Position numbers and translations under genes: made by a program | Shown: positions 21,015-39,354 of the stretch, in pieces | Position numbering within the stretch: position 1 is the stretch's first letter | Layout of the letters: every line of letters begins with the position of its first letter | From: Serinicoccus chungangensis | Lineage (GTDB): Bacteria; Actinomycetota; Actinomycetes; Actinomycetales; Dermatophilaceae | Direction of reading: 5' to 3' | DNA length: 64,000 nucleotides | Assembly (NCBI RefSeq): GCF_006337125.1 | Contig: NZ_CP040887.1 | Span: 1 to 64,000 of the forward strand | Notes under the pieces: generated by a model | Seen by the model: the letters and a program-made list of their open reading frames with translations, nothing else | What the model was told of the DNA's origin: nothing | Databases searched by the model: none

Positions 21015-21023
21015 GTACCCCAG
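21015..21023 (+). promoter_or_regulatory. Candidate integrase arm site GTACCCCAG
   Basis: A second copy of GTACCCCAG lies about 50 bases after the internal att copy, the same distance as at the left end of the island. Confidence 0.4.
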
Positions 21024-21080
21024 ATGAGTCAACGTGTGCTGATTCCGGCAACGTGTGCTGCTTCCGGGGGGAGCCGGCGT

Positions 21081-22482: not shown

Positions 22483-23260
22483 CTTGCCCTCCTTCTGGAA
22501 CCTCGTCCCCACGCAGATTACCGAGCATCTCAGCCGAGATCATAGATTGAAACACAGCCACGCCGCGAGCGTTCAGTTTATCGAACTCGTCCATCACCCG
22601 TTCGAGGGTCCAGAGCGCTCCTGATTCCCCATAGTTATCGAGGTCGAGGAGGTAGTTCCCATCGTCGGTAGGCCCACTGCGCAGGCCACAACGGAACCCA
22701 TCACCTATGTCTAACTGGAGTTGCTGGGAAAAGGCGAGCATCCCCTCCGACAGCCACACATCGTCGAGAACCGCCACGAGAGAGGGGCGCATCCAGCGTG
22801 CCCACTCGCTGTCTGGATGCCGTTCTGGGAGACGCATCAAGTTGACGAATCGAAGTCCGGACCGGGTAAGTGATATCGGATTCAGAATATCAGTGGCTCC
22901 GATTACGAGTTGGTGCCATCGCGGACGAAAGTTTTCTTCATAGCTCCTGAAAGCAGGAGTCTCCAAGGCAACCGAATCAGTGGTTATAGTAGCTGTCCAC
23001 TCCCCGTCCGCACTGATCAGTTGGTAACCGCTAGTACGAGACGTCACAGGCTCGGGCGTAGTAGTACCGAAAATGACTTGGTTGAGTTCCAGTGGGCTGA
23101 CGCGTGCCATACGTATCCCTGCTTCCTCGAGAAGTTCCTGGAAGCGGGAGAGAACACCCCCGTCGAGTTCGGCGCCGCCGGAGAAGCGGGCTTGGGCGAC
23201 CACGAGGGGGAGCGCGACGTTTTGGAGTGGACGATGGTCGGCCTGCGGCAGTCTCAACAT
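22475..23260 (-). CDS. TIGR04255-like protein
   Basis: The 261-residue product starts with an NVALPLVVAQARFSGGAELD segment and continues with GYQLISADGEWTATITTDSVAL, then YEENFRPRWHQLVIGATDIL and SRSGLRFVNLMRLPE-like sequence. This is the pattern of the sporadically distributed TIGR04255 family, whose function is unknown. It is the first gene of a three-gene overlapping operon with the Xre-like and Fic-like genes. GC is lower than in host genes. Direct repeats lie just upstream of the ATG. Confidence 0.65.
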   Translation of the reverse strand: MLRLPQADHRPLQNVALPLVVAQARFSGGAELDGGVLSRFQELLEEAGIRMARVSPLELNQVIFGTTTPEPVTSRTSGYQLISADGEWTATITTDSVALETPAFRSYEENFRPRWHQLVIGATDILNPISLTRSGLRFVNLMRLPERHPDSEWARWMRPSLVAVLDDVWLSEGMLAFSQQLQLDIGDGFRCGLRSGPTDDGNYLLDLDNYGESGALWTLERVMDEFDKLNARGVAVFQSMISAEMLGNLRGDEVPEGGQDE

Positions 23261-23276
23261 AGTGTCTCCACACGGT

Positions 23277-23295
23277 TACTGTAGCCCTACTGTAG
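23277..23295 (-). promoter_or_regulatory. Direct repeats upstream of the TIGR04255 operon
   Basis: TACTGTAG occurs twice (23277-23284 and 23288-23295), 11 bases apart, i.e. about one helical turn, 17 bases before the start of the operon. They are candidate operator half-sites for the Xre-like protein or part of the promoter. Confidence 0.5.
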
Positions 23296-23359
23296 GTACA
23301 ACGTAGTGGAGTGGTCACGAGTTCCGCCAGCACCGATCCGGGCTCCCTGTCAGACGGTC

Positions 23360-24589
23360 CTACGGGCCCGACGTGGGCTCTAGACCTTGGAGCTCCATCC
23401 CCAGGTTGCGGAGGGCTTGGCGGGTAGCGCGCGCTGAGACCTGGGAGTAGACCTCCATGGTCATCGCGATCCTGCTGTGGCGGAGGACGGCCATCGCCAC
23501 TCGCGGGTGCACGTCGAGCGAGACGAGCAGGCTCGCGCAGGTCCGCCGCGTGGCGTGGACCGGGATGATCGGGACCCCGGCCTTTCGCGCCCGGTTCTTG
23601 AACGCCGTGTGGAAGTTGCGCGGGTCGAGCGGGTCGCCGAGACGGGTGGTGAAGACGAGGCCGCAGTCGCCCCACATGTCGCCGGCGGCGATCCGTCTCC
23701 GATCCTCGTCGGCCCGGTGCCGCTCGAGGGCACGCACGGCGATGTCCGGAAGGGGCAGCGGCGCGTCCGAGGAGGGGGTCTTCGTCCGTCGCCGGAGCAG
23801 CTGGCCGTCGACCCGCTGTACCTGCCAGGCGATATACGCCTCGCCCCGCTCCAGGTCGACGTCCTCCCACGCCAGGCCGAGCACCTCGCCCCGCCGCAGT
23901 CCGAGCACGAGGAGCAGCACGTAGGCCGCATACATCGCGTCCCCGGCATGACGAGCAGACTCGAGGAACCGCCGCGCGTCGTCCACCGACCACACGGCCG
24001 ATCGCTTCGCCCGGGGCACGGGCACGCGCACGAGCGCGGCCACGTTCCGGAAGACGAGCTCCTCCCGCATCGCCTGGGTCAGTGCCCCGCGCAGCACCCG
24101 CCACGCCTGGTGGACCGTCCACTCGGAGGCGACCTCTTGGCAGCACTGCCCGCGTGCGCAGCACTGCGGTTCCGGCCGGGCCGCGTCCTTGCCTTGGAAG
24201 CAGCACTGGCACCGCACCCGCAGCTCGTTGACCCAGGTCTGGACGTCGCGGACCGACAGCTTCTCGAGCTTGCGGTCCCCCAGGTCGGGGACGATGTAGA
24301 GCCGGGAGAACATCTCGTAGTTGCTCGCCGTGGCCGGCGAGAGCCCGGGGCGCACGGTCTCCCTCAGCCACTGCTCCAGGAAGTCGCGCAGCTTGGGCGA
24401 GACCGGGACGACCGGGCCGCGCCGCGCCTGCTCGTGCAGCCGCAGCCACTTCTCGTGGACCTCGGCCCTGGTCTTGCCGTAGACGGACTTGCGCTGGCGC
24501 CGACCCGCGGGGGTGGTGATCCACACGTGGGCGGCGAAGCCGTTCCGGTACGGGTAGATCGACCCCTCCCCGTTGGCTCGCCTGCTCAC
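23360..24589 (-). CDS. int: Tyrosine integrase, intact copy
   Basis: The 409-residue site-specific recombinase has an N-terminal arm-binding domain (GEGSIYPYRNGFAAHVWI), a core-binding domain and a catalytic domain. Within the core-binding domain sits a Cys-rich insert RVRCQCCFQGKDAARPEPQ and CCARGQCC, as in many actinobacterial element integrases; it may bind metal. Catalytic residues include Arg in LVLGLRRGEVLGLAWEDV, HATRRTCASLL, LRHSRIAM and Tyr in MEVYSQVS. GTG 24589 overlaps the stop of the excisionase-like gene; a longer open frame to 24922 is not needed. It probably acts at the tRNA-Ala att sites, though it lies well inside the island. Confidence 0.92.
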   Translation of the reverse strand: MSRRANGEGSIYPYRNGFAAHVWITTPAGRRQRKSVYGKTRAEVHEKWLRLHEQARRGPVVPVSPKLRDFLEQWLRETVRPGLSPATASNYEMFSRLYIVPDLGDRKLEKLSVRDVQTWVNELRVRCQCCFQGKDAARPEPQCCARGQCCQEVASEWTVHQAWRVLRGALTQAMREELVFRNVAALVRVPVPRAKRSAVWSVDDARRFLESARHAGDAMYAAYVLLLVLGLRRGEVLGLAWEDVDLERGEAYIAWQVQRVDGQLLRRRTKTPSSDAPLPLPDIAVRALERHRADEDRRRIAAGDMWGDCGLVFTTRLGDPLDPRNFHTAFKNRARKAGVPIIPVHATRRTCASLLVSLDVHPRVAMAVLRHSRIAMTMEVYSQVSARATRQALRNLGMELQGLEPTSGP

Positions 24590-25048
24590 GGCCAGTCCGC
24601 CTCCGCCTCGGCGGCCCGCTTGGCGACGTACTCGTCGACCCACGCCGGCAGGATGCGCCGGGACCCGCCGTCCTTGAGCGAGCGCAGGTCGCCGGAGATG
24701 CACATCATGCGCACCTTCGTGGGCCCGTAGCCGAGCATCTCCGCCACTTCGGGCACGCTGTACCACCGCCGCTGCAGCGGCCCGACCGGTGCCTTGCTCC
24801 GCTGCTCCGGACTCCCGCTCGCCATCGTTGACATGTCCACTCCCTTCGTCAGGGACCAACCTCCGGTAGGCCAGATCCCGTGCGGACCAGGCAGGCACTT
24901 GACCGTTCCTGTGGATAACCACCCGACGACGAACCTGCCTACCCCTAATGCGGACGAGACCCCCCGCTGGGGCTCACTTCTTCCCAACTTTTTCTGAGCA
25001 GTTTCGCGACCGGCCGACAGCCCGCAGCAGCAGATCAAGGACACACCT
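23431..25048. repeat. 1.62-kb direct repeat, copy 2 (int-xis)
   Basis: This is the partner of 17518-19136. The 73 bases beyond its left edge encode a different integrase C-terminus (RNLGMELQGLEPTSGP). Beyond its right edge the sequence leads into the relaxase gene. The copies appear identical apart from one base, indicating very recent duplication or gene conversion. Confidence 0.9.
24586..24834 (-). CDS. Excisionase-like helix-turn-helix protein, copy 2
   Basis: The 82-residue product appears identical to that of copy 1, with SVPEVAEMLGYGPTKVRMM and SRRILPAWVDEYVAKRAAEA. It is co-transcribed with the intact integrase through a four-base overlap (GTGA). Because this pair is intact, it is the likely functional integration/excision module. 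Confidence 0.82.
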   Translation of the reverse strand: MSTMASGSPEQRSKAPVGPLQRRWYSVPEVAEMLGYGPTKVRMMCISGDLRSLKDGGSRRILPAWVDEYVAKRAAEAEADWP

Positions 25049-25118
25049 GGTGCACTCGGTGATATTGGTGCCGAAAAAGTGACCCCCTGAGCGCTGCTGC
25101 TCCGCATTAGGAGGCATG

Positions 25119-28100
25119 ATGACGTTGCACAAGCTCGCCGCGGGGAGCGGGTACACGTATCTGACGAAGCAGGTCGCTGCCCACGACGCCACGGAAAAGC
25201 GGCAGGTCGGCCTGGCCTCCTACTACGAGGAGAAGGGCGAGGCACCCGGTCGTTGGCTCGGCACGGGCCTGGTCGGGCTGGACCTGGCGGTGGGGGACGT
25301 GGTGACCGAGGAGCAGATGAAGCTGCTGTTCGGGCAGGGCCGCCACCCCCGCTCCGATGAGCCCGACGCGGCCGCGAACGGGTGGGGCGGGTTGGGGCGG
25401 GCGTTCCCGACCTTCGACGCCACGTCTCTGCGACAGGTGACGGCGCGGGCCTTCAGCGAGCACAACACCAGTCGCGGGCTGACGTGGAACGCGCCGATCG
25501 CAGCGGACGAGCGGGCAGTGATCAGGACGCAGGTCGCCCGGGAGGTCTTCGATCAGCGGCACGGCCGTCCACCCGTGGACGGGGGTGAGCTGACGATGTT
25601 CGTCGCGAACGCATCGCGGCCGGCGCAAGTGCCGGTGGCGGGGTTCGACCTGACGTTCTCGCCGGTGAAGTCGGTCTCAGCCCTCTGGGCCCTCGCCCCG
25701 GTCGAGGTCGCCCGGCAGGTGGAGGCCGCGCACGAGGACGCGGTCCTTGCGACTCTGGCGATGTTGGAACGCGAGGTGGCGTTCACGAGGGTTGGGAAGG
25801 GCGGCATCCGCCAGGTGCCCGTGGTCGGGCTGGTCGCGGCGGCGTTCGACCACCGTGACTCGCGCACCGGTGACCCGGACCTGCACACCCACGTCGTCGT
25901 GTCCAACAAGGTCCAGTCCCCGCCCGAGGAGGGCGGACGGTGGCTGACCCTGGACGGGCGGATGCTGTTCAAGGCCAAGGTGATGGCCTCCGAGCACTAC
26001 AACACCCACCTCGAAGCCGGCCTTGTGGACCGGCTCGGGGTCGGCTTCGTCGACCGCCCCGGGGTGGAGGGCAAGCGGGCGGTGCGGGAGATCGCCGGGA
26101 TCGACCCGGCCCTGCTCAGTGCCTGGTCGTCGCGACGGCAGGCGATCGAGGCCCGGCAGCGCGAGCTCACCTCGACCTTCCGAGCCGACCACGGCCGCAA
26201 CCCCACCGCGATCGAGTTGTTGGCGCTGGCGCAGCAGGCGAACCTGGAGACCCGCCCGGACAAGCACGAACCCCGCTCGGAGGCCGAGCAACGGCAGACC
26301 TGGCGCGAGCAAGCCACGACCGTCCTCGTCGACGCCGGACAGACTCCGGAAGAGGTGGTCACCGCGGCGGTCGGAGCGGGGTGGGGACGCAACCAGGGAC
26401 GTGACCGGGGACGCGGTAGGGACGTGAGCAGCGTCGCAGGTCACGGGGTGGGGACCCTCCAGCAGGGACGTTTCCGGGGACGTGTCCAGGGACGTGCTGG
26501 GGACGTGCGTCCCCAGGTCGTCGCGGCCCGGGTGCTCGCGGTGCTCGAGGGGTCGCGGGCGACGTGGCAGATCTGGCACGTGCGCGCCGAGACGCTGCGC
26601 CAGCTCCGCACCGCGCAGGTCCCCCTGGACAAGCTCGAGGCGTACCAACGTGACGTTCAGCGATGGGTGCTGCAGGGCTTCTCGGTTCCGGTCGGGGTAC
26701 CGCCGGACCTGGGTGAGCCGGAGGTGCTGCGCCGCCCGGACGGACAGTCCGCGCACACGGTGCACGGCAGCCAGGCCTACACCTCCCGTGCGATCCTGGC
26801 CGCCGAGGACGAACTGCTCGCGCTGGGGTTGCGCCGCGACGGCCGTCAAGCAGACCCGGTCATCGTGGAGGACGTGCTGGCCGCCCAGAGCGCGGACCGT
26901 CCGATCCTGGACCGGTCCCAGGCGGCGCTGGTCCGCAACCTCGCCACGAGCGGATGCCGGGTGCAGGTCGCCCTCGCCCCCGCCGGCGCCGGCAAGACCG
27001 CCGCGCTGCGCGTGCTAACGCGGTCCTGGGAGGCCTCGGGAGGCACCGTGCTGGGCCTGGCCCCCACCGCGGTCGCGGCCGAGGAGCTCGGTCGCGTTAC
27101 CGGAATCCGCGCCGACACCCTTGCCAAATACCTTCATGAGACCACCCCGGCAGGTGCTTCAGCGGCGACCGGCACGACGTCCGCCGTGGGCAGAACGGTC
27201 GGCCCAGGGACGTTGGTGCTGATCGACGAGGCCGGGATGGCCGGCACGCGCGACCTGGCGGCCGTGGTCCGGCACGTCGTCGACACGGGCGGGAGCGTGC
27301 GTCTGGTGGGCGACGACCAGCAGCTGGCCGCCGTCACGGCTGGCGGGATCTTCCGGGACCTGGCCGAGCAGGGTCATGCGCACGGCACCACCGCCACGCT
27401 GACCGAGCTGCACCGGTTCACCGACCCCGCCGAGGGCGCCGCCACCCTCGCCGTCCGCGACGGCGACCCCGCCGCCCTAGACCACTATTACGATCACGAC
27501 CGGGTCCACATCGGCGACACCGGAGACACGGTCGAGGCGGCCTACACGGCCTGGCGGGCCGATCAGCGCGCCGGGTTGTCCAGCCTGCTGCTGGCTGCGA
27601 CCCGGGAGACCGTGCGCGAGCTGAACCAGCGCGCCCGGCAGGACCGCCTCGACACCACCGGGCAGCCGCTCGGACCGGAGGTGACCCTGGCCGACGGCAC
27701 CCGCGCCAGCGCCGGCGACACCATCGTCACCCGTCGCAACGACAGGTCGCTGCGGACTGAGGAGGCCTGGGTCAAGAACGGCGACCGGTGGCGCGTCCTG
27801 GCTGTCCACCCGGACGGGACCGTCTCGGCCGAGCGCCACCGCGACGGGCGGGGAACCAAGTCGGCTCACGTCACCCTGCCGGCTACCTATGTGGGCGAGC
27901 ACGTGCAGCTTGGGTATGCCAGCACGATCCACGGAGCTCAGGGAGCTACCGTCGACACAACCCACACCGTCCTCACCGGCGCAGAGAGCCGCCAGGCGTT
28001 GTACGTCACCCTCTCCCGAGGGCGTCAGAGCAACCACCTCTACCTCGGCACACCCGCCGCCTCGCTGGACAGTGTCGGCCCAGACGTGCACGACACGTCG

Positions 28101-28955
28101 GCTACGGCGGAGCCGCGGCAGGTGTTGATCGACATCCTTGCCCGCGACGGCCGCGTGCTCTCGGCCACGACCGTCGAGCACGGCGACACCGCCCAGCTGC
28201 TGCGGGAGGCCGTACTGGCCTACCAGGACGCGCTGCCGGTCCTGGCCCAGCACCACCTCGGACCCGAGCGGATGACCGCTTTAGACGACGCGCTCGGGGA
28301 GTGGATGGCCGGCCTCACCGGGGCGCCGGCCTACCCGCACCTGCGCGGCCAGCTCGCGCTGCGATGGGTCGACGGCGCGCCGCCACAGGCCGTGATCGAG
28401 GAGGCCACCTGGTACCGCGGAAAGGAAAACCTGGCGGAGGCCAACGACCCGGCCGCCGCACTCGCCTGGCGCATCGCCGGCACCATGCCACCGTCCTACC
28501 GGGACGCGCCCCTGTCTTGGCTGCACGACGTCCCACCAGCGCTACGACAGGACCCAGAGACGAGCGACTACCTCGACCGGCTCACCCACCGGGTCCAGCA
28601 GCTCGTCGAGCGCGTCGCCGACGAAGCCCGGCAAGCGGGTGCGTCCGACCGGGTGCCCTGGCAGCGGACCCTGCCCCCGGACGTCGACGACCATCTCATC
28701 GGCGACCTCGCCGTCTGGCGCGCCGCCCACGGCATTCCAACCACCGAGGTGGAACCCACAGGTTCACCGATCAGAGAACCCGCTGCAGCCAGGTACCAGA
28801 CACGACTCGGCCGCCGGTTGAGCGCGCCGTCTCCGATCTCAGGCGTGTCGACGCCGAACACTGACGGCAGCAGGCTCCGAGCCAGCCGACGACGAGCAGA
28901 CCGGCACGCGGGGCACCTGAGTCCCTCCCGTGAGGTTCCTGGACCCGCCCGATGA
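25119..28955 (+). CDS. MobF-family conjugative relaxase-helicase
   Basis: MobF relaxases nick oriT, attach to the DNA end through a tyrosine and unwind the strand for transfer. The 1278-residue product has an N-terminal TrwC-type domain with candidate catalytic Tyr in GSGYTYLTKQV and the metal-binding histidines in FDHRDSRTGDPDLHTHVVVS. The C-terminal half is a RecD-like helicase with Walker A APAGAGKTAA, LVLIDEAGMAG and VRLVGDDQQLAA. AGGAGG precedes two consecutive ATGs; the second (25119) has better spacing. An odd linker encoded by GGGACG repeats lies between the domains. No oriT was identified and no mating-pore genes are present, so the element would depend on a helper. Confidence 0.92.
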   Translation: MTLHKLAAGSGYTYLTKQVAAHDATEKRQVGLASYYEEKGEAPGRWLGTGLVGLDLAVGDVVTEEQMKLLFGQGRHPRSDEPDAAANGWGGLGRAFPTFDATSLRQVTARAFSEHNTSRGLTWNAPIAADERAVIRTQVAREVFDQRHGRPPVDGGELTMFVANASRPAQVPVAGFDLTFSPVKSVSALWALAPVEVARQVEAAHEDAVLATLAMLEREVAFTRVGKGGIRQVPVVGLVAAAFDHRDSRTGDPDLHTHVVVSNKVQSPPEEGGRWLTLDGRMLFKAKVMASEHYNTHLEAGLVDRLGVGFVDRPGVEGKRAVREIAGIDPALLSAWSSRRQAIEARQRELTSTFRADHGRNPTAIELLALAQQANLETRPDKHEPRSEAEQRQTWREQATTVLVDAGQTPEEVVTAAVGAGWGRNQGRDRGRGRDVSSVAGHGVGTLQQGRFRGRVQGRAGDVRPQVVAARVLAVLEGSRATWQIWHVRAETLRQLRTAQVPLDKLEAYQRDVQRWVLQGFSVPVGVPPDLGEPEVLRRPDGQSAHTVHGSQAYTSRAILAAEDELLALGLRRDGRQADPVIVEDVLAAQSADRPILDRSQAALVRNLATSGCRVQVALAPAGAGKTAALRVLTRSWEASGGTVLGLAPTAVAAEELGRVTGIRADTLAKYLHETTPAGASAATGTTSAVGRTVGPGTLVLIDEAGMAGTRDLAAVVRHVVDTGGSVRLVGDDQQLAAVTAGGIFRDLAEQGHAHGTTATLTELHRFTDPAEGAATLAVRDGDPAALDHYYDHDRVHIGDTGDTVEAAYTAWRADQRAGLSSLLLAATRETVRELNQRARQDRLDTTGQPLGPEVTLADGTRASAGDTIVTRRNDRSLRTEEAWVKNGDRWRVLAVHPDGTVSAERHRDGRGTKSAHVTLPATYVGEHVQLGYASTIHGAQGATVDTTHTVLTGAESRQALYVTLSRGRQSNHLYLGTPAASLDSVGPDVHDTSATAEPRQVLIDILARDGRVLSATTVEHGDTAQLLREAVLAYQDALPVLAQHHLGPERMTALDDALGEWMAGLTGAPAYPHLRGQLALRWVDGAPPQAVIEEATWYRGKENLAEANDPAAALAWRIAGTMPPSYRDAPLSWLHDVPPALRQDPETSDYLDRLTHRVQQLVERVADEARQAGASDRVPWQRTLPPDVDDHLIGDLAVWRAAHGIPTTEVEPTGSPIREPAAARYQTRLGRRLSAPSPISGVSTPNTDGSRLRASRRRADRHAGHLSPSREVPGPAR
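26383..26507 (+). repeat. GGGACG repeat cluster inside the relaxase gene
   Basis: About eight GGGACG(T/C) units are scattered over 125 bases. They encode a Gly/Arg-rich linker (GRNQGRDRGRGRD and GRFRGRVQGRAGD) between the relaxase and helicase domains. The frame stays open. The repeat could be a flexible linker, a slippage-expanded tract or a nucleic-acid-binding patch. Confidence 0.6.
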
Positions 28956-29236
28956 CCGGTCAGTGACGCGGCCTGGTCCGGGTAGCGCGAAGTAATCGAT
29001 ACATCGCTGATTCGCCGATGTCCGAATGTCTCAAGGAGCTAATGGAAGGATCGCCTCGACGTGGCTGGAACGGTTGGCCGGCTAGAGCGTGCCCACACGG
29101 GCGATGGCGCTTGAGGCCCGGCTGCGGCCGGCCGTCGCCCGGGGAATGGGAGGCGCGCCAACCTATGAGTGCTCCTCCTCGCGACCTCCTGCTGTACCGT
29201 TCGCAGATAACTCGGCAAACTGAAAGGTTGGCAAGG
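28956..29236 (+). ncRNA. Noncoding region upstream of the reverse transcriptase, possible RNA
   Basis: This 281-base stretch has no convincing gene; the open frame from 29018 looks noncoding up to about 29160. It contains inverted sequences such as GGGCGA (29099-29104) and TCGCCC (29135-29140) enclosing further GC-rich complementary segments. Several defence-type reverse transcriptases use an upstream noncoding RNA as template or partner, so this is a candidate; the structure was judged by eye only. Confidence 0.3.
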
Positions 29237-30676
29237 ATGAAGCGTGACGTACGTAAGGCGGCCAAGGGTTACCACAGCAGTCTGGACCCCTCGTTTCCAC
29301 CGCTCATCACCTTCTCCAGCCTCGAAAAGGCGGAGTCCTCTTTAAGTGAAACCGCAGAGACCATGTTGGACGGGGAGCGATACCCATCCGGCGAGACGCT
29401 CAGCGTGCCCAGGCGGAGCGGCGGCGCGCCTCGTCCCGTGACGGTGCTCCCACCTCCGGTCTCCGTAGCATATTCAGCTCTCACCGACACGTACAGCGAG
29501 GTGCTGCCAACACGCACCGCTCAAGACTATGCCGAATTTCACGGGGTGGGGCTGAGCGGGAACGCCACTTACGTGGTGGAGAGCGACATAGCCTCCTGCT
29601 ACGAGTACGTGAATCATGATCTTCTCCGGCTTGAGATGCTCAAAGCTAAACCTGGCGGCCTTGCACACGCCAATGAGTTACGTCGCCTACTCAGCGAGAC
29701 GCACCCCCGTCACGTCGGTCTTCCACAAATGAACACAAATAGTGACCGCCTCGCGGATCTGTATATTTCTGCGATCGTTAAGCAAGCGCGGTTGGCGGGC
29801 TACGACATATATTCGTACGCCGACGACTTTAAGGTTCTGGTCCACGATTGGGCCGAGGCCAACACCTGTGTTGAGGATCTTTCCGAGTTCGCGCGGTCCA
29901 TGGGTCTTGTTCTTTCCCAGCATAAAACAGTCACTTGGCGTGCCGAGCGACTCCGAGAGCGCGAAGCTGAATCTACCAGTTTCTTTCGGCAGCATCTGCT
30001 TCCGGCAGAAGGGAAAGAGGAGGTGTCATTGGTAAATCCGTACGACGTGAAGATCACTGTTGGTCAGGCCCCGAACTTCGCCGGCGCTTCTGCGCTAATC
30101 GAGCGATGGAGTGAACGAGGGGAGGAGATAAGGCAACATCCTTGGGAGCTTCGACTCGAGGATCGATTCATCACCCAGGCCCTCCTCATTGCAGCCGCTG
30201 GCCAGCAGGCTATAGATAATGAGACGTTGACCGATTTCGTGTTTTTCAACCCGCACCGCCTGAGCACCCTTCCATTTATTATGCTCCAGCGGAGCAATAA
30301 TGACCAGAACGACCCTTTGATCGATTCACTAGTCACCTCAGGCCGTCAAAGTGCGTGGTTCAAGCTTTGGATGATGCACCTCATTCAGCATCGATCGGGA
30401 GACCTGACGAGTGCCCAGGAAACGTGGCTACTTCGGCAGTTTGATGATCGTCACGAGGTAATACGCGCAGAGTCCGCCTGGGTCGCTTCCCAATTAGGCC
30501 TCCTGACGTCTGACCACCTGGAGCGCGCGTATCGTTCCGCAGGGCCTTTAACCATGCACACGTTGGCGGCCTGCTCGGCTCACTTGCCGACGAGCAAGAG
30601 CCTTCACGCCATCGGCAACGATGGGCCCTTGAATAAGGCGGCAAAGCGCTGGGCAGAAGAGGATTCGGGAGCTTGA
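29237..30676 (+). CDS. Reverse transcriptase, defence-type candidate
   Basis: The 479-residue product has reverse-transcriptase fingers (PRPVTVLPPPVSVAYSALTD), motif A VESDIASCYEYVNH (Asp117), motif B GLPQMNTNSDRLADLY (about 161), motif C SYADDF (Asp196 and Asp197) and motif D LSQHKT. About 190 helical residues without a known motif follow. There is no intron maturase, and no retron or diversity-generating context is obvious. The motif B pattern and C-terminal helical domain recall the Abi/DRT (unknown-group) reverse transcriptases of phage defence. ATG 29237 has GAAAGG upstream; ATG 29165 and 29018 are alternatives. The stop overlaps a HEPN-like gene. GC is clearly below the host level. Confidence 0.85.
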   Translation: MKRDVRKAAKGYHSSLDPSFPPLITFSSLEKAESSLSETAETMLDGERYPSGETLSVPRRSGGAPRPVTVLPPPVSVAYSALTDTYSEVLPTRTAQDYAEFHGVGLSGNATYVVESDIASCYEYVNHDLLRLEMLKAKPGGLAHANELRRLLSETHPRHVGLPQMNTNSDRLADLYISAIVKQARLAGYDIYSYADDFKVLVHDWAEANTCVEDLSEFARSMGLVLSQHKTVTWRAERLREREAESTSFFRQHLLPAEGKEEVSLVNPYDVKITVGQAPNFAGASALIERWSERGEEIRQHPWELRLEDRFITQALLIAAAGQQAIDNETLTDFVFFNPHRLSTLPFIMLQRSNNDQNDPLIDSLVTSGRQSAWFKLWMMHLIQHRSGDLTSAQETWLLRQFDDRHEVIRAESAWVASQLGLLTSDHLERAYRSAGPLTMHTLAACSAHLPTSKSLHAIGNDGPLNKAAKRWAEEDSGA

Positions 30677-31203
30677 GCAGAATCGGCGAAGTCTACTTGG
30701 GCCAGACTGTTCACCTGCTCACTCGAGCTCAAGACAACGACCCTTTGGGTACGCTCGTCGCTTGTTGCGCCTTAGGAGAAGCGTTCGCCGGTTCCATACT
30801 TGAGGAGCGCATCGATACCACGGGCGTCCCTGCGCATCCCTTAGGGCGGTTCATGCTAAGCGAGTCCGCAAAGGATCGCGATGGAACCTGGGAAGCTAGA
30901 ACCAAGTGGCTAACTGCGACTGGTATCCCAAGTTTCCGGGGTGCGAAATGGTATCAGGACTTTGACGCCCTAACTCAGGCGCGGAATGCCATGCTGCATG
31001 GGTACGGAGACCTTACGCAACGCCAGACGTCGAGCATCACGCATATGGTCGTACTGCGTGACACGATCACTCGACGAACCAAAATCGAAGTGGTGGGGAC
31101 GCAATTGCAACTTGATCCGAGTAATTCCCCGACATGGGTAGAGATAGTACACAACTTCATCAGGGAGCTGGACGCGCTTCACGAGAAGAGTGCGGTTGAA
31201 TGA
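30673..31203 (+). CDS. HEPN-like protein coupled to the reverse transcriptase
   Basis: The 176-residue all-helical product contains DALTQARNAMLHGYGDL. RNAMLH (Arg104-His109) matches the Rx4H catalytic motif of HEPN ribonucleases, in the RNxxxH form. Apart from that I recognise no family. Translation starts at TTG 30673, overlapping the reverse-transcriptase stop (TTGA), so the two proteins are made together. In AbiA a reverse transcriptase is fused to a HEPN domain. The present arrangement could be a split version in which the HEPN protein is the toxic effector; this is inference. Confidence 0.6.
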   Translation: MSRIGEVYLGQTVHLLTRAQDNDPLGTLVACCALGEAFAGSILEERIDTTGVPAHPLGRFMLSESAKDRDGTWEARTKWLTATGIPSFRGAKWYQDFDALTQARNAMLHGYGDLTQRQTSSITHMVVLRDTITRRTKIEVVGTQLQLDPSNSPTWVEIVHNFIRELDALHEKSAVE

Positions 31204-31388
31204 TTGCGCCGCTCGGTGCCTCCCCCTGCGTCAGCAGTCTGCGGACCGGCTGTGGTGCTGACACGGCCAACGGCGTTCGAATCCCCGCCGCGGCGCGGGC
31301 TGACCGCGCCACGCCAAGGCCGCGCAGGCAAGGACGCATAGGCGGAGGTGCCCGCCCGCGCGTTCCTGCTGAACCGCGTGCCCTCCAC

Positions 31389-31736
31389 TCAGCGCCGCGT
31401 GCCGTTGGACCATGGCGGTGTCCGGGTCCCCGACCTTGACGTCAAGTGCCATCGACGACAACTTGGGCAGAGGTATACACCAATTGGCCGCTGTCTTCCC
31501 GAAGACTTGTAACGCCGTTGGATGGCTCGCAAGGCAAGCTCGGCGGCGGGAAGACAGGGGTAGGGCACCTTGCGGGAGGCAGGCACGACGCTCCTCGAAC
31601 AGAGACGTCGTGCTCGGCTGGCTGGCACCCGCTTCCACGGCCGGCTGAGGTCGAAAGTTCGGGCGCCCATTCCGTTGCCCTGGATGACGACGTCCAGGTT
31701 GGGTTGTCTTGGTGCGTCGGTGCGTGCGTGAAGCAA
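31389..31736 (-). CDS. Small Cys-rich protein, tentative
   Basis: The open frame codes for 115 residues, of which the centre looks genuine: RRLCSRSVVPASRKVPYP, AAELALRAIQRR, then VYLCPSCRRWHLTSR. The C-x2-C-x3-WHLTS ending is familiar from small actinobacterial zinc-ribbon-like proteins that start with a Lys/Arg-rich segment. The start is uncertain and the last 15 residues do not fit, so it may be a decayed gene. It stands alone between the reverse-transcriptase pair and the helicase operon; the rest of 31204-31762 shows nothing else convincing. Confidence 0.35.
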   Translation of the reverse strand: MLHARTDAPRQPNLDVVIQGNGMGARTFDLSRPWKRVPASRARRLCSRSVVPASRKVPYPCLPAAELALRAIQRRYKSSGRQRPIGVYLCPSCRRWHLTSRSGTRTPPWSNGTRR

Positions 31737-31762
31737 AGCAGCTGACTCACCCCTGGCGCTTC

Positions 31763-31957
31763 ATGGGCAGCGCGGAGGTCGCGGAGCACCTTGGCCTCAG
31801 CCGTCAGTGAGTCCTGCAGTTGCTCGCCGACGACGCGACGTTCCCGAAACCGGTCGCCGGGTTCAGGATGGGCAAAGTCTGGCTGGCCACCGACGTCCGG
31901 GCGTGGGCAGACCGCTCGTGCGCCGGGACGCCGACGGCTACTTCACCGCCGGCGTGA
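31763..31957 (+). pseudogene. Excisionase-like HTH gene with in-frame stop
   Basis: Read from ATG 31763, the frame gives MGSAEVAEHLGLSRQ, a TGA stop, then VLQLLADDATFPKPV, GFRMGKVWLATDVRAWAD and a stop at 31955. Without the TGA it would be a typical 64-residue AlpA/excisionase-type winged helix. A single CGA-to-TGA change explains the break. It overlaps the end of the ATPase gene on the other strand by 20 bases. Confidence 0.6.
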
Positions 31958-33665
31958 CCTCTGTGTCGCTGCACCGGCAGGAGAAGGTCCGCTGTCCTCG
32001 CCGTTCTACCCAGCGCCCGCAGGACGAGCAATGCAGCGCCGCCACCAGTTCGGCCACCGCCCAGCCGAACCGCTCGGCTTCGGCCCAGGTGACGCCCTCC
32101 GCCCACTCGTTGTAGTGGGCGCCTGCGGCGTTGCGCAGATGCAGCCACCGGTCGACCTCGGCCACCGAGCCGCCCACGGATGTCGCCTTGAGCTCCTTGG
32201 CGGTCCCGGGCCACAGGTCCGCGAGCGTGTACGCGTCGCCGTGCTTGCGCTTGACGCTGATCGGGATGGTCCAGCTCATCCGGTCACACGCCTGTTCAAG
32301 AACGCGTCCGGCCACGCCGCAGACGGTGTGCGGGTCCTGTCCCTCCAGCGCCGACCACAGAGCAGCGGCCGGGTTGGAGTCGGCGGCCGCGTTGACGGTC
32401 GGCCCGCGCTCGAAGTCCCACCCTCGCACTTCGATGTCCGCAACAGGATGGCCTGCCCGCTGGAAGACGTCCCGGAGCTGGGTGCGCCACAGCCGGTCGT
32501 GGACCGTGACCAGAAGCTGCCAGTCTTCGAACTCCTTCACTACCAGGTCCATGACCGCGACCCGGATGCCGGCATCGACGCTCTGCAGCACGTCGTCCAG
32601 GACCAGGACCTTGGCCTGACCGCGCTCCCCGGCGGCCCGAAGCACCGCGAGGAAGTAGAGCAGCGCGATGAGGTCCTGGTAGCCCTCGCTGAACACCTGC
32701 TGCGGCGACCGCCGGGCGCCGTTGCTCATGTGGGCGAAGAGCTCGATGGACATGTCGCTAGCGGCCCCGTAGACCGCGTCCAGCCGAGTGACGTGACGAG
32801 CTCCGGTCACCGCGTGGAAGGCATGGGTCAGCCAGTCGCTCACGTCGCCGAGGATGTCGTGCATGGCGCGTAGCCGGGCGATGACCGCCGGGACCGTCTG
32901 GGTCGTGGCCCTGAGTCGTTCGTTGTGCCGAGCCACCTCCTCGCGCCAGCGCTCGATCTCGGCCACGTCCGGTTGGACGGAACGATGGATGGCCACGCGG
33001 GCCCGATGCTCAGGCGGGACGCCCTTGTAAACGTGCTCGTCGAGGAGCGCGTCGATGGCGGTGGCGGACTTCGGCGGCTCGGCACCGAACCGCTCGGCCA
33101 GTCCCGCCGCTGCCGCGCGCATCGACGCCTTCGCCGAGTGGAGGTCGTTGCGAACGGCCTCTGCTTCGTCAGTCGCCACCTGGCTGCCGGTCGGGTCGTC
33201 GTCGAGCGAGTGACCCATGAAGACCTTGGCGCGCTCCAACGGCGACGTCCCCAGGAACTTGAGGATGTCGGCTCGCTTCAAGGACATCGGGACGCGCCGG
33301 AACGCAGCCGGTGTCGGGTCTCCCTGGATGCGGTGGGTGCCTTCCGCGTCCAGCGCGGCCCGGCGTTCCACGACCCTGCCGTCGGTGAGCAGGACGCGCA
33401 CGCGAGCAGTCGCGGACGCCGCCGCCACGTTCACCACGGACGGAGCGCCCGGGCTCGTGCTCGGCGCCTGTCGCGCGACCCGGCCTTGGCACGCCCACTC
33501 CACAGCGTCAACGATGCTGGACTTGCCGGACCCGTTCTCGCCGAAGATCAGCGCGGATGTCGGCCGGGCCGCGTCGCCGAACGCGACTCGCTGGCGCCCC
33601 GGCATGCCGCGGAAGCCCTCAAGCTCGACCTCCGCAACACGGAGCCGTCGGACTGCGTCGCCCAT
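31938..33665 (-). CDS. SMC/RecF-like AAA ATPase of the defence operon
   Basis: The 575-residue product starts with RLRVAEVELEGFRGMPGRQ and Walker A FGENGSGKSS (about 41-50), has a central helical region, then FSEGYQDLIALLYFLAVLRAAG and Walker B KVLVLDDVLQSVD (about 365). This is the ABC/SMC-type split ATPase layout. A C-terminal pair of Cys motifs, CSSCGRW and CRC (about 545-565), suggests a zinc ribbon. It is the last gene of the helicase-methylase-ATPase operon, 17 bases after the DUF499 gene. It might sense or hold DNA ends; no nuclease motif is evident. Confidence 0.8.
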   Translation of the reverse strand: MGDAVRRLRVAEVELEGFRGMPGRQRVAFGDAARPTSALIFGENGSGKSSIVDAVEWACQGRVARQAPSTSPGAPSVVNVAAASATARVRVLLTDGRVVERRAALDAEGTHRIQGDPTPAAFRRVPMSLKRADILKFLGTSPLERAKVFMGHSLDDDPTGSQVATDEAEAVRNDLHSAKASMRAAAAGLAERFGAEPPKSATAIDALLDEHVYKGVPPEHRARVAIHRSVQPDVAEIERWREEVARHNERLRATTQTVPAVIARLRAMHDILGDVSDWLTHAFHAVTGARHVTRLDAVYGAASDMSIELFAHMSNGARRSPQQVFSEGYQDLIALLYFLAVLRAAGERGQAKVLVLDDVLQSVDAGIRVAVMDLVVKEFEDWQLLVTVHDRLWRTQLRDVFQRAGHPVADIEVRGWDFERGPTVNAAADSNPAAALWSALEGQDPHTVCGVAGRVLEQACDRMSWTIPISVKRKHGDAYTLADLWPGTAKELKATSVGGSVAEVDRWLHLRNAAGAHYNEWAEGVTWAEAERFGWAVAELVAALHCSSCGRWVERRGQRTFSCRCSDTEVTPAVK

Positions 33666-33682: not shown

Positions 33683-36622
33683 TCAGACGTCGCGGGAACT
33701 GGGGTTCGTGCCGCTCGCGCGCGCAGCCTGCTCGATCCCGTCAGCGACATCGGCGGCCAGAACCACCTTCACCTGGAGCTGTGCCCAGGAGACCTTGCCC
33801 TCGTCGGCGGCGTTGGACAGCTCCAGGAGCAGCCGGCGGACCGCGTCGCGGGTGTCACCGTCGCCCAGGCTCGTCATCAAGCTGAACGCGATCTCGCGCT
33901 CGGTCGCGACGGGGGCGGGACCTGGGCCGGGTTCGGGGTCGGGCGACGGACCAGGGCCCGGCGAGGGACCAGGGCCGGGGCCGGGTGACGGGCCAGGACC
34001 CGGCTGAACATCGGGCCCGGGGCCAGGATTGGGGTCGACGGACTTCGGCGGCGCAAGGCGCAGGCCCGAGGAACCGACGGCGATGTCGCCGGCGCGGGTG
34101 ACGGCGCGGTCCTGCCCGTCCGCACCGACGAGCCGCAGGAGCCCGGCCTCGACGGCCTCGTACACGGCTCGCTGAAGGTCAGCGTCACCGCCGGGCAGCA
34201 GCGGCATCCGGGGGCTGCTCCAGAACAGGTCCCGGAGCTCGTCGAGCGGCCTGCCGTAGTCTTTAGCGTCGAGGTTGTGCAGCAGCGCCTTCGCGGTCAG
34301 CGCGGAGGTGTCGAACGCCTTGCCCTGTCCGGCGAGCGACTTCCATACCGCGGTGCCGTCGAGCGAGGTGAGGTTGCTGTCCGGCTCGAACGCGTGCGTC
34401 CGGTCGATGCGGGGCTGGTCCTGCTGGTCGCCTTCAGCGAGGTAGATGAGGTGGCGGTAGGAGCGGCGGACGGCGCTGTCGAGGTTGCGTCGCGCCTCTG
34501 CTCGCTCGGTGCGTGCCTGCTCTGAGAGCTCGTCGTCGGCGCGCACGGCGTCCATGACGGCGACGCGGTCCCAGGCGAGGTAGGCGGCGGCCGCTCCGCG
34601 GGCGGCGGCGCGGCCCTGCGTGTTGACGACGGCGTAGACAGCGGACGATGCCCACTGCACCGGGACCTTGTTGGGTCCGAGCCCCATGACGGCCCGGATG
34701 GCGTCGCGGGTGTCCTTGTCGACGCCGTTGAGCAGGCTGAACTGGCACGGGTCGAGCACGACCAGTCGGGTCGTCCTGGCGTCGTCGATGCCAGCGGCGG
34801 TGAGCACTGCCAGCGGGTCCCGGTCGGGGTCGGCGCGGACGAAGACCTTGCTCTTGAACGGCCCGGTGGTCGAGAGGCGCTCGGCAGTCCGGGCAAGCTC
34901 CTCGTCGCGGTCGTCGTCGGTGACGCTGGTGCGGGCGGCCTTGACGAGCATGTTCAGCGTCCGCCTGGTGGACATGAACAGCCGCGGCGCCTGGCCGCCC
35001 TTGCCGGCGAGGTGCTCGACGCTGGACAACCCGCCGCCCTCGATGTCCATCAGCTCGGCGAGCACGCTGTCGGCCTCGCCGATGGAGTAGTTCGGGTCGG
35101 GGACGAAAAGCGCGGCCTTGAGCTCTGCCTCGGTCGCGCCCTGCCGGCCGCCGGCGCGGGCGCCGATGACCGAGCACAGGAACAGGCAGGTCGCGGCGCG
35201 CTCGGCGGCACGCGGGTTGAGCGAGCCGATGATGCCGTCGGTGCGGCCGCGGTCGAGCTCGCGCGCGGCGCCCTTGAGATCGTCGGCAGCGGCGATGTCG
35301 GCGCTGGCGATCTGGCGGTAGTTCGCCTGGGTGCGGGTGTCCACGATGAGGCCGCTGTTGATGACGGCCTCGCGCACCGTGGGGTCGGACAACGGCAGAT
35401 CGCCGGGGCCGACGAGCAGCGGCGCCCACTGTCCGGACTTGCCGCGCTGGTACTGCGAGTGGGCGGTGGCGGCAAAGATGCGGATGGTCGAGCGGACGCG
35501 CTGGAACCCTGCGAGCTTGGCCCACTCCTGCTCGGCCAGCGCCATGAGCTGAGGGTGGAACGGGTAGCAGCGCGCGACCTCCTCCGGGAACTCCGGGTTG
35601 GCCGTCGCGGGCACCAGGTCGAACACCTTCGCGCGCCAAGGGCCGATCATCCGCGAGGCGTAGGCGGTGGCGGTGGCCTTGAGGACCTCGGCGGGCGGCG
35701 TGCCGTCGAACAGCCGACGCCGCAGGATGGCAGCGAAGTCGGTGTTGTCGTTGATGGTGGCGGTCTCGCCGTTCCGGATGAGCAGGTCGTCGAGCTCGGC
35801 TCGGCGCTTATGCCCGGCGTCGTCCAGGTCGATGTTGTCGGCCTCGGACGCGATCATCACGACGACGGCGGCGACGTTCGGGACGTCGTTCACGCTGTCG
35901 AGCAGCGCGCGCAGGAAGGCCATGTCCTTGACCGCCAGGTCTGCGTTCTCGGTCAGCGAGAGCTGCCGGACGTAGTCCATGATCTCGTCGATAAGGATGA
36001 GCACGGGCCTGCCAACGGCGGTGAGCGCCTCGACGATGCGGTGCTTGTCGGCGTAGCCGTCGCGGTAGCGCAGGTAGAGGTTGTTGTCGCCGCTGAACAG
36101 ACGCCACAGGAAGCGCTCGTGCAGAGTCTGCGCCGGACCGTCGAACTCCGCGCTGCCCTTCCCTGCGGTCATGTTGTCGGCCGCGATCACGACGACGACC
36201 GGGCTGTTGAGATCAGCAGGCGGCTGCTCGTCGAGGATCTGCGCGGCCTTGTCCCAGGCGGCCTTCCCGACGTCGGTCTGACCGAGAGCGGCCGGGTGCG
36301 CCGCGAGGTGCCACAGCCCGATGAGTCCGTGCGACTTGCCGCCGCCCATCGCCTGGTCCAGCCGCCACAGCGCCCGCGCGCGGGTGTTCTTGTCGCCTCC
36401 GCCCAGGCGCACGGCGACCTTCGCCATGAGGTCGGTGAACAGCGGGCTCGGGTGCGTGATGTCGCCGTAGTAGCCGGCGCCGGCGTACGGCGGCCGATCC
36501 TGAGGCGTCCCGTGGACAGCCTGAAACAGCGACATCTGCACGTCGTCGATGGACCCGGACGCGTGGACGACCTCGTCCCTGAGCTTGAGGACCTCCCACC
36601 AGGGGGTCACGCGGCTGCTCAA
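33683..36622 (-). CDS. DUF499 ATPase of the defence operon
   Basis: The 979-residue product belongs to the DUF499 (COG1483) AAA+-like family. It has Walker A LDQAMGGGKSHGL (about 88-100) and Walker B VLILIDEIMDYVRQ (about 207-220), plus VVVMIASEADNIDLDD. Near the C-terminus a proline-glycine tract (PGPGPSPGPGPGPSPGPGP and similar, from about 855 to 905) links the core to a last domain of about 65 residues. DUF499 and DUF1156 genes travel together in defence islands. TTG 36622 overlaps the methylase stop (TTGA) and follows GGAGACGTC; a longer frame to 36952 is a shadow. Confidence 0.88.
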   Translation of the reverse strand: MSSRVTPWWEVLKLRDEVVHASGSIDDVQMSLFQAVHGTPQDRPPYAGAGYYGDITHPSPLFTDLMAKVAVRLGGGDKNTRARALWRLDQAMGGGKSHGLIGLWHLAAHPAALGQTDVGKAAWDKAAQILDEQPPADLNSPVVVVIAADNMTAGKGSAEFDGPAQTLHERFLWRLFSGDNNLYLRYRDGYADKHRIVEALTAVGRPVLILIDEIMDYVRQLSLTENADLAVKDMAFLRALLDSVNDVPNVAAVVVMIASEADNIDLDDAGHKRRAELDDLLIRNGETATINDNTDFAAILRRRLFDGTPPAEVLKATATAYASRMIGPWRAKVFDLVPATANPEFPEEVARCYPFHPQLMALAEQEWAKLAGFQRVRSTIRIFAATAHSQYQRGKSGQWAPLLVGPGDLPLSDPTVREAVINSGLIVDTRTQANYRQIASADIAAADDLKGAARELDRGRTDGIIGSLNPRAAERAATCLFLCSVIGARAGGRQGATEAELKAALFVPDPNYSIGEADSVLAELMDIEGGGLSSVEHLAGKGGQAPRLFMSTRRTLNMLVKAARTSVTDDDRDEELARTAERLSTTGPFKSKVFVRADPDRDPLAVLTAAGIDDARTTRLVVLDPCQFSLLNGVDKDTRDAIRAVMGLGPNKVPVQWASSAVYAVVNTQGRAAARGAAAAYLAWDRVAVMDAVRADDELSEQARTERAEARRNLDSAVRRSYRHLIYLAEGDQQDQPRIDRTHAFEPDSNLTSLDGTAVWKSLAGQGKAFDTSALTAKALLHNLDAKDYGRPLDELRDLFWSSPRMPLLPGGDADLQRAVYEAVEAGLLRLVGADGQDRAVTRAGDIAVGSSGLRLAPPKSVDPNPGPGPDVQPGPGPSPGPGPGPSPGPGPSPDPEPGPGPAPVATEREIAFSLMTSLGDGDTRDAVRRLLLELSNAADEGKVSWAQLQVKVVLAADVADGIEQAARASGTNPSSRDV

Positions 36623-39354
36623 GACGTCTCCTCTGCCATGTCGATGTCGAACAGGGTGCGCTGCCGGTCCTTGTCCTGATCGGCCTCGCGCTGCGCCGAG
36701 ACGACACCTCGCGCCACGCTGGCGATACCCCGCCGCGCGCGGACGAGGGATGTCCACGCCACGGCGTCGGGGTCGGCCTCTGGCAGGAGCGACGACAGGT
36801 ACCCTAGCGTCGCCCACAGGTAGGCGTCGTCTTCGTCCCGCTTCGCCGATGCCAGCACCTGCGCCACCTCGTCGAGACCGCCGGGCCAAGCCTTTGCCAT
36901 CGCCATCGCCACGTCGATGACCGACGAGGTCGGCCCGATGGCGCCCTTCCACTCCTTGGACGTCACCAGCCGCACGGCCTTATCCGCCTCGTGCAAGACG
37001 CCCTTGAGCTCTTCGAGCGTCAGGTCCGCAGCCAGTGCTTGCCAGCGGGCCTCGGACTTCGCGGCTGGAGCGCGGCGGTAGAGGCGCGCCCAGCCGAGCG
37101 CGAAGCGCGTGCGGGCGTCGAAGGTATCGAGCGGTAGATTCTCAATAGGAACCGAAGTGGCGTCTACGACGGCCTTGCGGGCCACAATGAGGTAGTGCGA
37201 CGGGTCCACCGGGTCGCCGAGGTGATCCAGGACCTGGGCGTACCTGCCCACAGCCTCCATCGCCGGCCCTGCAGACGCCATGAGCTGGTCAGTCGGGGCG
37301 AGCCCAGCGGCATCCCACAGCGGGATGCGCGACTGCACCTCGCGCCGGACCTCCGACTCGATCAGGTGGGCCCTGCCGTTGGGGCGACCCACCGGCGCGG
37401 GCCGGCACGACATCGTCAGCGTGGTCAGGATGTTCGCCGACCCGCCGCTCGTGTTCGCTTCCGTACGAGCCGGCCACGATCCTGTGAGCACCAGCCCCGC
37501 TGCGGCTACCGATGCCAAGAATCGGTGCCAGACGTCGGGGTCACCGTGACCGAAGACGATGCTGACGACGCCGTCAGCGCTGACTGCTCGTGCGGCTTCC
37601 CTGAACGCCTTGGTGATGCTGGCGTCGTAGTGAGCCCTGTTCCGATGCTCTCCTGGCGCGTTGCCGCCAGCCTTCCGGACGATGGCTTCGAGCGCCTTGT
37701 CCTGAACTCCCGTGAGGTCGCCCACCATCTGCAGCTCCGGGGCGGAACTGAGGAGCGCCCGCTTCATCCAGACGAAGAACAAGTCTGACGCGTCGAGGTA
37801 CTCGATCATGCTGTCGTACGGCGGGTCGGTGACAACCGCGTCCAGTACCCCGTCGCGGTACGGAAGGGCGGTGGCCGTGCCCCAGGCGATGTGCGCGGAT
37901 CGGCCCACTGATCGTGATGCCTGGTTCCTCAGGATCACCAGGGTGTCCTTGCACAGGGAGCGCCAGGTCCCCGGACCGTCTCCGAGGCCCGCTTCGAAGT
38001 AGTCAAACGAGAAGGTGATGCTCCCTTCGTGCCGGAACAGGTCGGTCGTCTGTACCGTGCCGGTCTTGTGGGCCATGAGTGAAACGCCGCGAGTCGCCCG
38101 GCGGAACTTGCGGATCATGACGGCGGTCGCGTAGCCGGCCAGGGCCGTCGCGTAGTCGCTGGAGACACCCGCATCCCGCATCTCAACGGCCAGGTCGTTG
38201 ATCGCCCTAGCTAGCTCGACAAAACCCAGCGTCTGCCGTGCGTTGCACAGGTCGCCGTACGTCTTGGCCCCGTAGACGAGGGGCTGCACTGTCCATGTGT
38301 TGGCGGGTGGAATCGGCTCTTCGGGGACGGCGCTCAGTCCTGGGCCGAAGTCCGGCTGGCCGGCCAAGGCATCAACGGCCGCTGCAGCGGCGGCGATCTC
38401 CTCGTCCGTCAGCGGCCGGAACCGCTTGCCCACGGCGTCGTCGAAGTCCGCCGCGAGCAACTGGGCGTCCCGCATGAGCCCGAGCTTCGCCAGCCGCGTC
38501 TGCAGGTCCTTCGAGTGACCGTGCTCGCAGAACGGGCAGATGGCCGACTTCCCCGCAGCGTCGTACTTGGACTTGCCTTCTGGCACCACCCGCGTCGGCC
38601 GGTCAGTAGGCGGTCCGTCGTGGATCTCCGCGCGGAAGGTCCCAGCGGCTCGGTCGACGACGAGCCGGAAGCTCTGCCCGGGGTCAGACCGCTTCGCCGA
38701 CGGGTGACGCAGCACCAGGGACCCGATGAGAGGGAAACGGCGGTCGCACTCCTGGCAGGGCATCGTCAGCGCCCACACGTACCCCCAAGGCTGGCTGGTT
38801 CCCCGAGTCGGGTAGTACTGGCGCATAGCCGCCTCGTACCGGTTGCCCACCTCGTTGAGGACTTCTGCCACGTCCTGTGTCAGTCGATCGTCGAGCGGGT
38901 TCTGCGCGTACCCGTCCATGGGGAGGTCCGGCTCGCCGGACCAGTCCCTGAGGGGGTAGTCGGCGAGCAGTCGGCCCGCGATGGCGGCGACGGGCGAGTA
39001 GTCGATGCCCTCGGCTCGGGCGCCCATTCTTGCCGCTTCGAGCGGGATGATGGCCCTGCCCGAGAACGGGTCGAGGACGCGCGCTCCTTGCGGGTAGTGC
39101 TTGCCGAGCTCCGCCAGAAGCTCGTCGTGCGCGGCGTCACGGCCTAGGAGGGACCGCCGGACAAGGTCCTGCAGCCGCCGCTGCTCGGCGACGTCCTCGG
39201 GCCAGGGCAGGAGACTGGTGATGACAGCGGCTCGCGCTTGGGCCAACGGCCTGGCCGCGAACCAGGTAAACAACGCCTTCTCGCTCTTGCCGCTGCCCCA
39301 GCCGCTCGCAGAAGCTTCGCTAACCTCGGCGCAGGGGAACCAGCGCTCGATCAT
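36619..39354 (-). CDS. DUF1156 adenine-type DNA methyltransferase of the defence operon
   Basis: The 911-residue product has an N-terminal DUF1156 region (MIERWFPCAEVSEASASGWG), a SAM-binding motif RVLDPFSGRAIIPLEAARMG (about 92-110), zinc-ribbon-like pairs CQEC and CPFCEHGH, and the catalytic TDPPYDSMIEYLDASDLFF (DPPY about 509). The DPPY motif indicates exocyclic amino (N6-adenine or N4-cytosine) methylation. Its target sequence cannot be read. It would mark host DNA or act within the defence complex. ATG 39354 overlaps the helicase stop. Its neighbours are the SNF2 helicase and the DUF499 ATPase. Confidence 0.9.
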   Translation of the reverse strand: MIERWFPCAEVSEASASGWGSGKSEKALFTWFAARPLAQARAAVITSLLPWPEDVAEQRRLQDLVRRSLLGRDAAHDELLAELGKHYPQGARVLDPFSGRAIIPLEAARMGARAEGIDYSPVAAIAGRLLADYPLRDWSGEPDLPMDGYAQNPLDDRLTQDVAEVLNEVGNRYEAAMRQYYPTRGTSQPWGYVWALTMPCQECDRRFPLIGSLVLRHPSAKRSDPGQSFRLVVDRAAGTFRAEIHDGPPTDRPTRVVPEGKSKYDAAGKSAICPFCEHGHSKDLQTRLAKLGLMRDAQLLAADFDDAVGKRFRPLTDEEIAAAAAAVDALAGQPDFGPGLSAVPEEPIPPANTWTVQPLVYGAKTYGDLCNARQTLGFVELARAINDLAVEMRDAGVSSDYATALAGYATAVMIRKFRRATRGVSLMAHKTGTVQTTDLFRHEGSITFSFDYFEAGLGDGPGTWRSLCKDTLVILRNQASRSVGRSAHIAWGTATALPYRDGVLDAVVTDPPYDSMIEYLDASDLFFVWMKRALLSSAPELQMVGDLTGVQDKALEAIVRKAGGNAPGEHRNRAHYDASITKAFREAARAVSADGVVSIVFGHGDPDVWHRFLASVAAAGLVLTGSWPARTEANTSGGSANILTTLTMSCRPAPVGRPNGRAHLIESEVRREVQSRIPLWDAAGLAPTDQLMASAGPAMEAVGRYAQVLDHLGDPVDPSHYLIVARKAVVDATSVPIENLPLDTFDARTRFALGWARLYRRAPAAKSEARWQALAADLTLEELKGVLHEADKAVRLVTSKEWKGAIGPTSSVIDVAMAMAKAWPGGLDEVAQVLASAKRDEDDAYLWATLGYLSSLLPEADPDAVAWTSLVRARRGIASVARGVVSAQREADQDKDRQRTLFDIDMAEETS

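Follow-up and report, generated by a model that had tools for sequence, protein, structure and literature searches.

Positions 29237–31203 of Serinicoccus chungangensis contig NZ_CP040887.1 (assembly GCF_006337125.1), analysed here as part of the stretch from position 1 to 64,000 (the window), hold two overlapping genes on the forward strand, coding for a UG22-type reverse transcriptase (RT) and for a HEPN-fold protein of 176 residues (Table 1). By their profile matches both proteins belong to families that are already known and are labelled DRT in PADLOC-DB (2023), RT_UG22 and RTasHEPN; no paper on either was found in the open-licence literature searched. What the present analysis adds is the linkage of RT and HEPN, the grouping of the linked RTs on a single branch, the four-base overlap of the two genes and a conserved tyrosine in the linker of the RT.

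The RT matches RT_UG22 (PDLC03760) with an E-value of 1.1e-124 over profile positions 8–476 of 476, UG21 being the next-best PADLOC family (1.7e-19), and it also matches RVT_1. Asp117, Asp196 and Asp197, numbered like all RT residues from ATG 29237, are kept in 38/38 aligned RTs. In the predicted structure the RT domain is followed by helices from residue 281 to residue 478, and the model matches the folds of DRT6, DRT4 (UG15) and AbiK over 412–432 residues. Compared by profile, the whole RT chain resembles designed alphaREP chains (E 2.6e-5), none of its stretches passing alone, and the predicted architecture, an RT domain and then HEAT-like alpha-helical repeats, is the one found in UG/Abi Class 1 (alphaRep). 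An initial annotation of this DNA had described an RT with intact catalytic motifs and a helical C-terminus, to be sought among the UG/Abi and DRT defence RTs, and this description holds. The candidate identity as a group II intron RT/maturase was rejected (TIGR04416, 49.5 bits against an NCBIfam cut-off of 300).

The second protein matches RTasHEPN (PDLC03820) with an E-value of 4.3e-30 and, like the RT, covers nearly its whole profile. It is modelled as a helical bundle of the HEPN fold carrying a short beta hairpin, in agreement with the HEPN-like nature first proposed from the RNAMLH signature; that this signature is a chance Rx4H match in a protein of 176 residues is ruled out by the family match and the fold. 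Arg104, Asn105, His109, Trp73, Gly112 and Thr115 are invariant in 37/37 aligned HEPN proteins (Glu36 in 36/37), despite pairwise identities that fall to 13%, and RNxxxH is present in 38/38 further proteins from the HEPN profile search, so that the Rx4-6H motif runs through both sets. To judge from the sequences, the active site is kept, which favours a ribonuclease (RNase) effector. General databases recognise the family poorly: the window protein has no match to a Pfam family and a single weak one, below cut-off, in NCBIfam, Pfam HEPN_RiboL-PSP matches 11/35 members at E <=0.1 (best 1.8e-5), and the HEPN profile, run against PDB sequences, returned two designed proteins only. HEPN-MNT toxin-antitoxin modules share the HEPN fold and the Rx4H motif, and their Rx4HxY motif carries a tyrosine modification site. 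Here, however, the partner is an RT and the HxY position holds a tyrosine in 1/37 HEPN proteins, namely the window copy, and its absence from the other 36 does not favour a HEPN-MNT identity.

The RT open reading frame (ORF) extends over 29018–30676 on the forward strand and contains YSYADDF. The public ORF call (P0003) places the RT start at 29237, giving 479 residues; the start may lie upstream, since a relative that is 54% identical (P0004) has 12 extra N-terminal residues, the UG22 profile was entered at position 8, and GGGAGG lies 5' of ATG 29165, from which the RT would have 503 residues. As noted initially, the RT stop overlaps the TTG start of the gene for the protein with RNAMLH: TGA (30674–30676) and TTG (30673–30675) together form TTGA, and GAGGA lies nine bases 5' of the TTG. 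This start is supported by P0002, whose alignment begins at its first residue. The public ORF call of the HEPN gene (P0001) has 116 residues, beginning at an internal Met with the first 60 residues missing, probably because the true start is the TTG.

Table 1. Features of the RT-HEPN locus and of its surroundings in the window.
Feature	Position	Strand	Basis or remark
UG22-type RT with C-terminal alpha-helical repeat domain	29237..30676	+	start possibly ATG 29165
Catalytic Asp117 codon (motif A)	29585..29587	+	D in 38/38 aligned RTs
Catalytic Asp196-Asp197 codons (YADDF)	29822..29827	+	DD in 38/38 aligned RTs
Tyr269 codon, flexible linker, candidate protein-priming tyrosine	30041..30043	+	conservation; putative function
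GAGGA, ribosome-binding-like site for the HEPN gene, within the RT gene	30659..30663	+	sequence; putative function
TTGA stop/start overlap of the RT and HEPN genes	30673..30676	+	sequence
HEPN-fold protein, 176 residues, RTasHEPN family	30673..31203	+	profile match and predicted fold
RNAMLH, Rx4H HEPN motif	30982..30999	+	R, N and H each in 37/37 aligned
HipA-like gene	15777-17069		
Phage-type integrase	23363-24922	-	
TrwC relaxase-helicase	25116-28952	+	
SMC-like ATPase with mad3-like similarity	31941-33665	-	
Set matching HmaC, HmaB and HmaA profiles (helicase, DUF1156 methylase, DUF499 ATPase)	33686-42599	-	

The same gene pair recurs in other genomes. A scan of named genomes seeded with six RTs (set A3: five HEPN-linked and one of no known context, so that the scan leans to this clade) gave 33 RT relatives from 77 stretches, all with actinobacterial titles, and a HEPN gene follows the RT in 32 of these 33 loci, the remaining RT running to the contig end; three of the 33 lie in genomes also met in the profile searches (G316, G438 and G468). 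With the window RT alone as seed, the genome scan gave 0 relatives from 19 stretches. The UG22 profile, run against 396 genomes of the phylum and 394 of the class, found nine genomes at E 1e-25 and eight at E 1e-35, with matches above 250 bits in seven distinct genomes, in four of which, the window genome included, HEPN adjoins the RT; RTasHEPN was found in 5/394 class genomes, these same four and G402. The order was RT first and HEPN second in 35/35 pairs. Besides these two, no gene family occurs in more than 5/35 loci among the clusters listed (largest clusters of open frames of at least 90 residues, with short flanks in some loci and no search aimed at MNT profiles). The four-base stop/start overlap is exact in 24/34 pairs, longer in five, replaced by a short gap in four and unsettled in one (L054); HEPN starts were hand-picked among candidates, and where several lay near the RT stop (e.g., L041, L043, L047 and L052) the one at -3 was taken, which biases the 24/34 towards the four-base overlap (L029 was counted at +1 and aligned from a later ATG).

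RT and HEPN distances correlate strongly (Mantel r 0.905 over 34 loci, reached by 0/2000 permutations). A maximum-likelihood tree of 44 RTs has a branch, supported at 100/99, that separates the 34 HEPN-linked RTs and four of no known context from three HEPN-less RTs and three other UG-type RTs; one gain of HEPN suffices for this topology, which does not prove it. Members of different Actinomycetota families are mixed in the RT tree, suggesting that RT and HEPN were transferred together. The window copy is a diverged branch: its RT is 27–31% identical to the nearest paired copies of known context (L002 and L054), and only P0004, whose context is not known, is closer. Left out of the RT alignments were L037 (RT in two frames, kept with a mid-frame start for the HEPN alignment), L055 (RT cut and in two frames) and L056, and L001, L023, L033 and L053 were dropped as copies of the window, L016, L015 and L002, respectively.

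Among plasmid records, the pair was found in two Rhodococcus plasmids (L021 and L022), the other matches being distant RTs. In these two plasmids the 451 bases 3' of HEPN are 92% identical and the RTs only 62%, as if alleles of the pair had been exchanged at one site. Phage records gave no match, and viral contigs gave 0 of 65 stretches or, with seed A4, 1 of 21, a weak match without HEPN (L056). Two further loci (L019 and L020) have lower-scoring UG22 matches and, directly after them, small proteins with extended hydrophobic segments, which by eye look like a partner different from HEPN.

The pair lies between the integrase and TrwC genes on one side and the minus-strand SMC-like gene and Hma-like set on the other. 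The HipA-like, integrase and TrwC genes (15777–28952) suggest an integrative conjugative or mobilisable element, and the island looks mobile and seems to carry other defence-like genes, in keeping with the defence-rich setting that had been noted. The low GC content reported earlier for the stretch is present, at 0.65 (28001–30000) and 0.61 (30001–32000) against 0.69–0.77 in most other 2-kb blocks, although 18001–24000 is likewise low (0.64–0.66).

We found no conserved non-coding RNA (ncRNA) upstream of the RT by Rfam, blastn, local alignment or folding, a search run without a positive control with an ncRNA-bearing DRT. Rfam reported two tRNAs only in the window, and fold z-scores were 0.26, -0.77 and 1.64 for three 150-nt pieces 5' of the RT and -1.43 for one 3' of HEPN. 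A blastn comparison of 34 sequences, each covering at most 700 nt 5' of the RT with 30 coding bases included, showed similarity in five pairs, whose RTs are 62–91% identical; by local alignment of 200 nt, similarity was absent in 12/14 chosen pairs and beat all 100 shuffles in two (L027/L028 and L047/L052, RTs 82% and 91% identical). In L027/L028, the last 145 bases or so 5' of the RT start show 85% identity, beyond which the similarity ends; this block could be a promoter and leader, or a small RNA. A promoter and terminator scan found two promoter-like sites against 1.2 expected, neither of them 5' of the RT on the RT's own strand, and no terminator.

Between the palm and the helical domain, in a poorly conserved stretch that is modelled with low confidence (residues 261–280, mean predicted local distance difference test score 62–66), we identified a tyrosine, Tyr269, that is present in 38/38 RTs in alignment A5. 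Acidic residues at both -1 and +2 ([DE]-Y-x-[DE]) occur in 23/38 cases at Tyr269, in 1/72 at other linker tyrosines and, in the stretch examined, in 0/3 HEPN-less UG22-like RTs, all counts from related sequences and not from independent events. A tyrosine in the linker between RT and helical domain is a likeness to AbiA of Lactococcus, whose DNA is described as attached to Tyr298 or Tyr303, in a loop (290–310) joining the same two domains (PMC11077055). Priming in DRT3b is ascribed to a conserved Tyr666 (PMC13174585), and DRT9 is reported to use tyrosines of a C-terminal loop instead (PMC12489045).

Several known systems resemble the pair in part. AbiA combines RT, helical domain and HEPN, but there the HEPN is fused to the RT C-terminus, whereas the UG22 pair consists of two genes in different frames. 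DRT4 and DRT6 share the overall fold of RT and helical repeats and differ in being described as single-gene systems without HEPN (PMC13213688). The type IX retron (retron-Kva2) has an RT and a HEPN RNase in one operon, with the retron's DNA product as the switch (PMC13405049); it also includes a winged-helix protein and an msr-msd ncRNA, and its HEPN site is non-canonical; the UG22 pair, in contrast, has a canonical HEPN motif, no third gene shared among the clusters listed and no ncRNA found.

We hypothesise that the pair is a two-gene UG22 anti-phage operon of the DRT kind, with a protein-primed RT and a HEPN RNase gated by DNA, a tentative reading to which we assign a probability of about 0.45. 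The RT would be a template-independent, protein-primed DNA polymerase of Abi/DRT4/DRT6 architecture, with Tyr269 in its flexible linker as the point from which DNA is started, and the HEPN protein would be made in step with it through the overlapping start. As a dimeric RNase, the HEPN effector would stay inactive in a complex with the RT and the attached DNA, until a phage product that binds, degrades or protects this DNA switched it on; RNA, perhaps tRNA, would then be cut and the infected cell would stop growing. That the RT makes DNA and primes it at Tyr269, that HEPN cuts RNA, that the two form a complex, that DNA acts as the gate and that the outcome is abortive are all inferred. Untemplated DNA synthesis is what the architecture and the lack of a detected ncRNA lead one to expect, and in fact the Class 1 systems studied so far are described as synthesising untemplated DNA, some with protein priming (PMC13174585). 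In retron-Kva2, according to a preprint, a complex of RT and DNA holds and releases a HEPN tRNase (PMC13405049).

A number of observations weigh against this hypothesis. The pairing foreseen by the initial annotation holds within the clade, with overlapping genes, but not throughout UG22: in three of the seven genomes (G340, G078 and G726) there is no HEPN within 12–13 kb around the full-length UG22 match and the best PADLOC family of the RT is UG22 too, so that the RT family in its entirety is not tied to HEPN. Tyr269 reaches at least 90%, and not all RTs, in realignment A8, and the chance of some tyrosine in every linker (60–115 residues) has a product probability of 0.035, which is not rare; for that reason the case for Tyr269 is stronger through its acidic neighbours, and the window copy (VNPYDVKI), acidic at +1 only and not at -1 or +2, is among the 15/38 without the strict motif. 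In G402 the HEPN gene (L057, on a 3.2-kb contig) lies beside a transposase-like gene, named by eye, with no piece of an RT, and in L037 the RT is split between two frames and the HEPN is intact; both come from fragmented or metagenome assemblies and, if real, speak against a HEPN that is strictly toxic unless the RT restrains it. An ncRNA that lacks a conserved sequence may also have escaped detection.

The main rival is a split polymerase of the AbiA kind, in which HEPN would have a structural part, dimerising the RT and being required for its DNA synthesis, with single-stranded DNA as a toxic product or decoy and no cutting of RNA. This we consider unlikely, although the AbiA parallel drawn at the outset, apt in that RT and HEPN are here two genes, speaks for it in another respect: the AbiA HEPN keeps R-x6-H, but none of the substrates tried revealed an RNase activity, and this HEPN is reported to serve dimerisation and to be needed for polymerase activity (PMC11077055), and DRT4, among the nearest folds, is described as defending via its single-stranded DNA product (PMC13213688). 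UG22-like RTs without HEPN exist, however, and the invariant HEPN residues look like a kept active site, which is not decisive, as AbiA keeps the motif too. It is quite improbable, in our view, that the pair is a plain toxin-antitoxin, in which the RT protein would bind and thereby neutralise a HEPN toxin and DNA synthesis would have little importance, given the three aspartates kept in all aligned RTs, the HxY tyrosine confined to the window copy and the absence of a widely shared third gene among the clusters listed. Least probable of all is that HEPN would be activated, and not inhibited, by a ligand consisting of RT-made DNA or of deoxyoligonucleotides that a phage nuclease releases from this DNA: a preprint title cited in PMC13405049 has deoxydinucleotides activating ApeA, which is listed there among HEPN systems, but the HEPN model has no added ligand-binding domain beside the helical bundle and hairpin. 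In sum, the observation made in the initial annotation is confirmed, and its interpretation, a DNA product of the RT that controls a HEPN RNase, is partly supported, none of the refuting outcomes named there having been outright borne out.

A more specific form of the DNA-gated RNase hypothesis would make the pair a third coupling of RT and HEPN, next to those of the type IX retron and the fused AbiA, with neither ncRNA nor fusion involved. In it the linker tyrosine, acid-flanked in most members, would carry the untemplated DNA and dock at or near the HEPN dimer, and the state of this protein-bound DNA (growing, cut or covered by phage proteins) would directly gate the RNase. We regard it as rather unlikely. 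The strict motif, frequent in the clade and absent from the HEPN-less RTs, is distributed as co-evolution of a priming site and HEPN predicts; that the window copy keeps the tyrosine and not the motif lowers the odds of this form slightly.

Without being a member of the AbiA system, the pair looks like AbiA divided over two genes, which allows polymerase and HEPN to be deleted and mutated independently; such a pair could decide between RNase effector and scaffold as the role of a HEPN next to a defence RT. Should DNA on Tyr269 gate the RNase, the tripwire principle of retrons would extend to Abi-type polymerases without an ncRNA.
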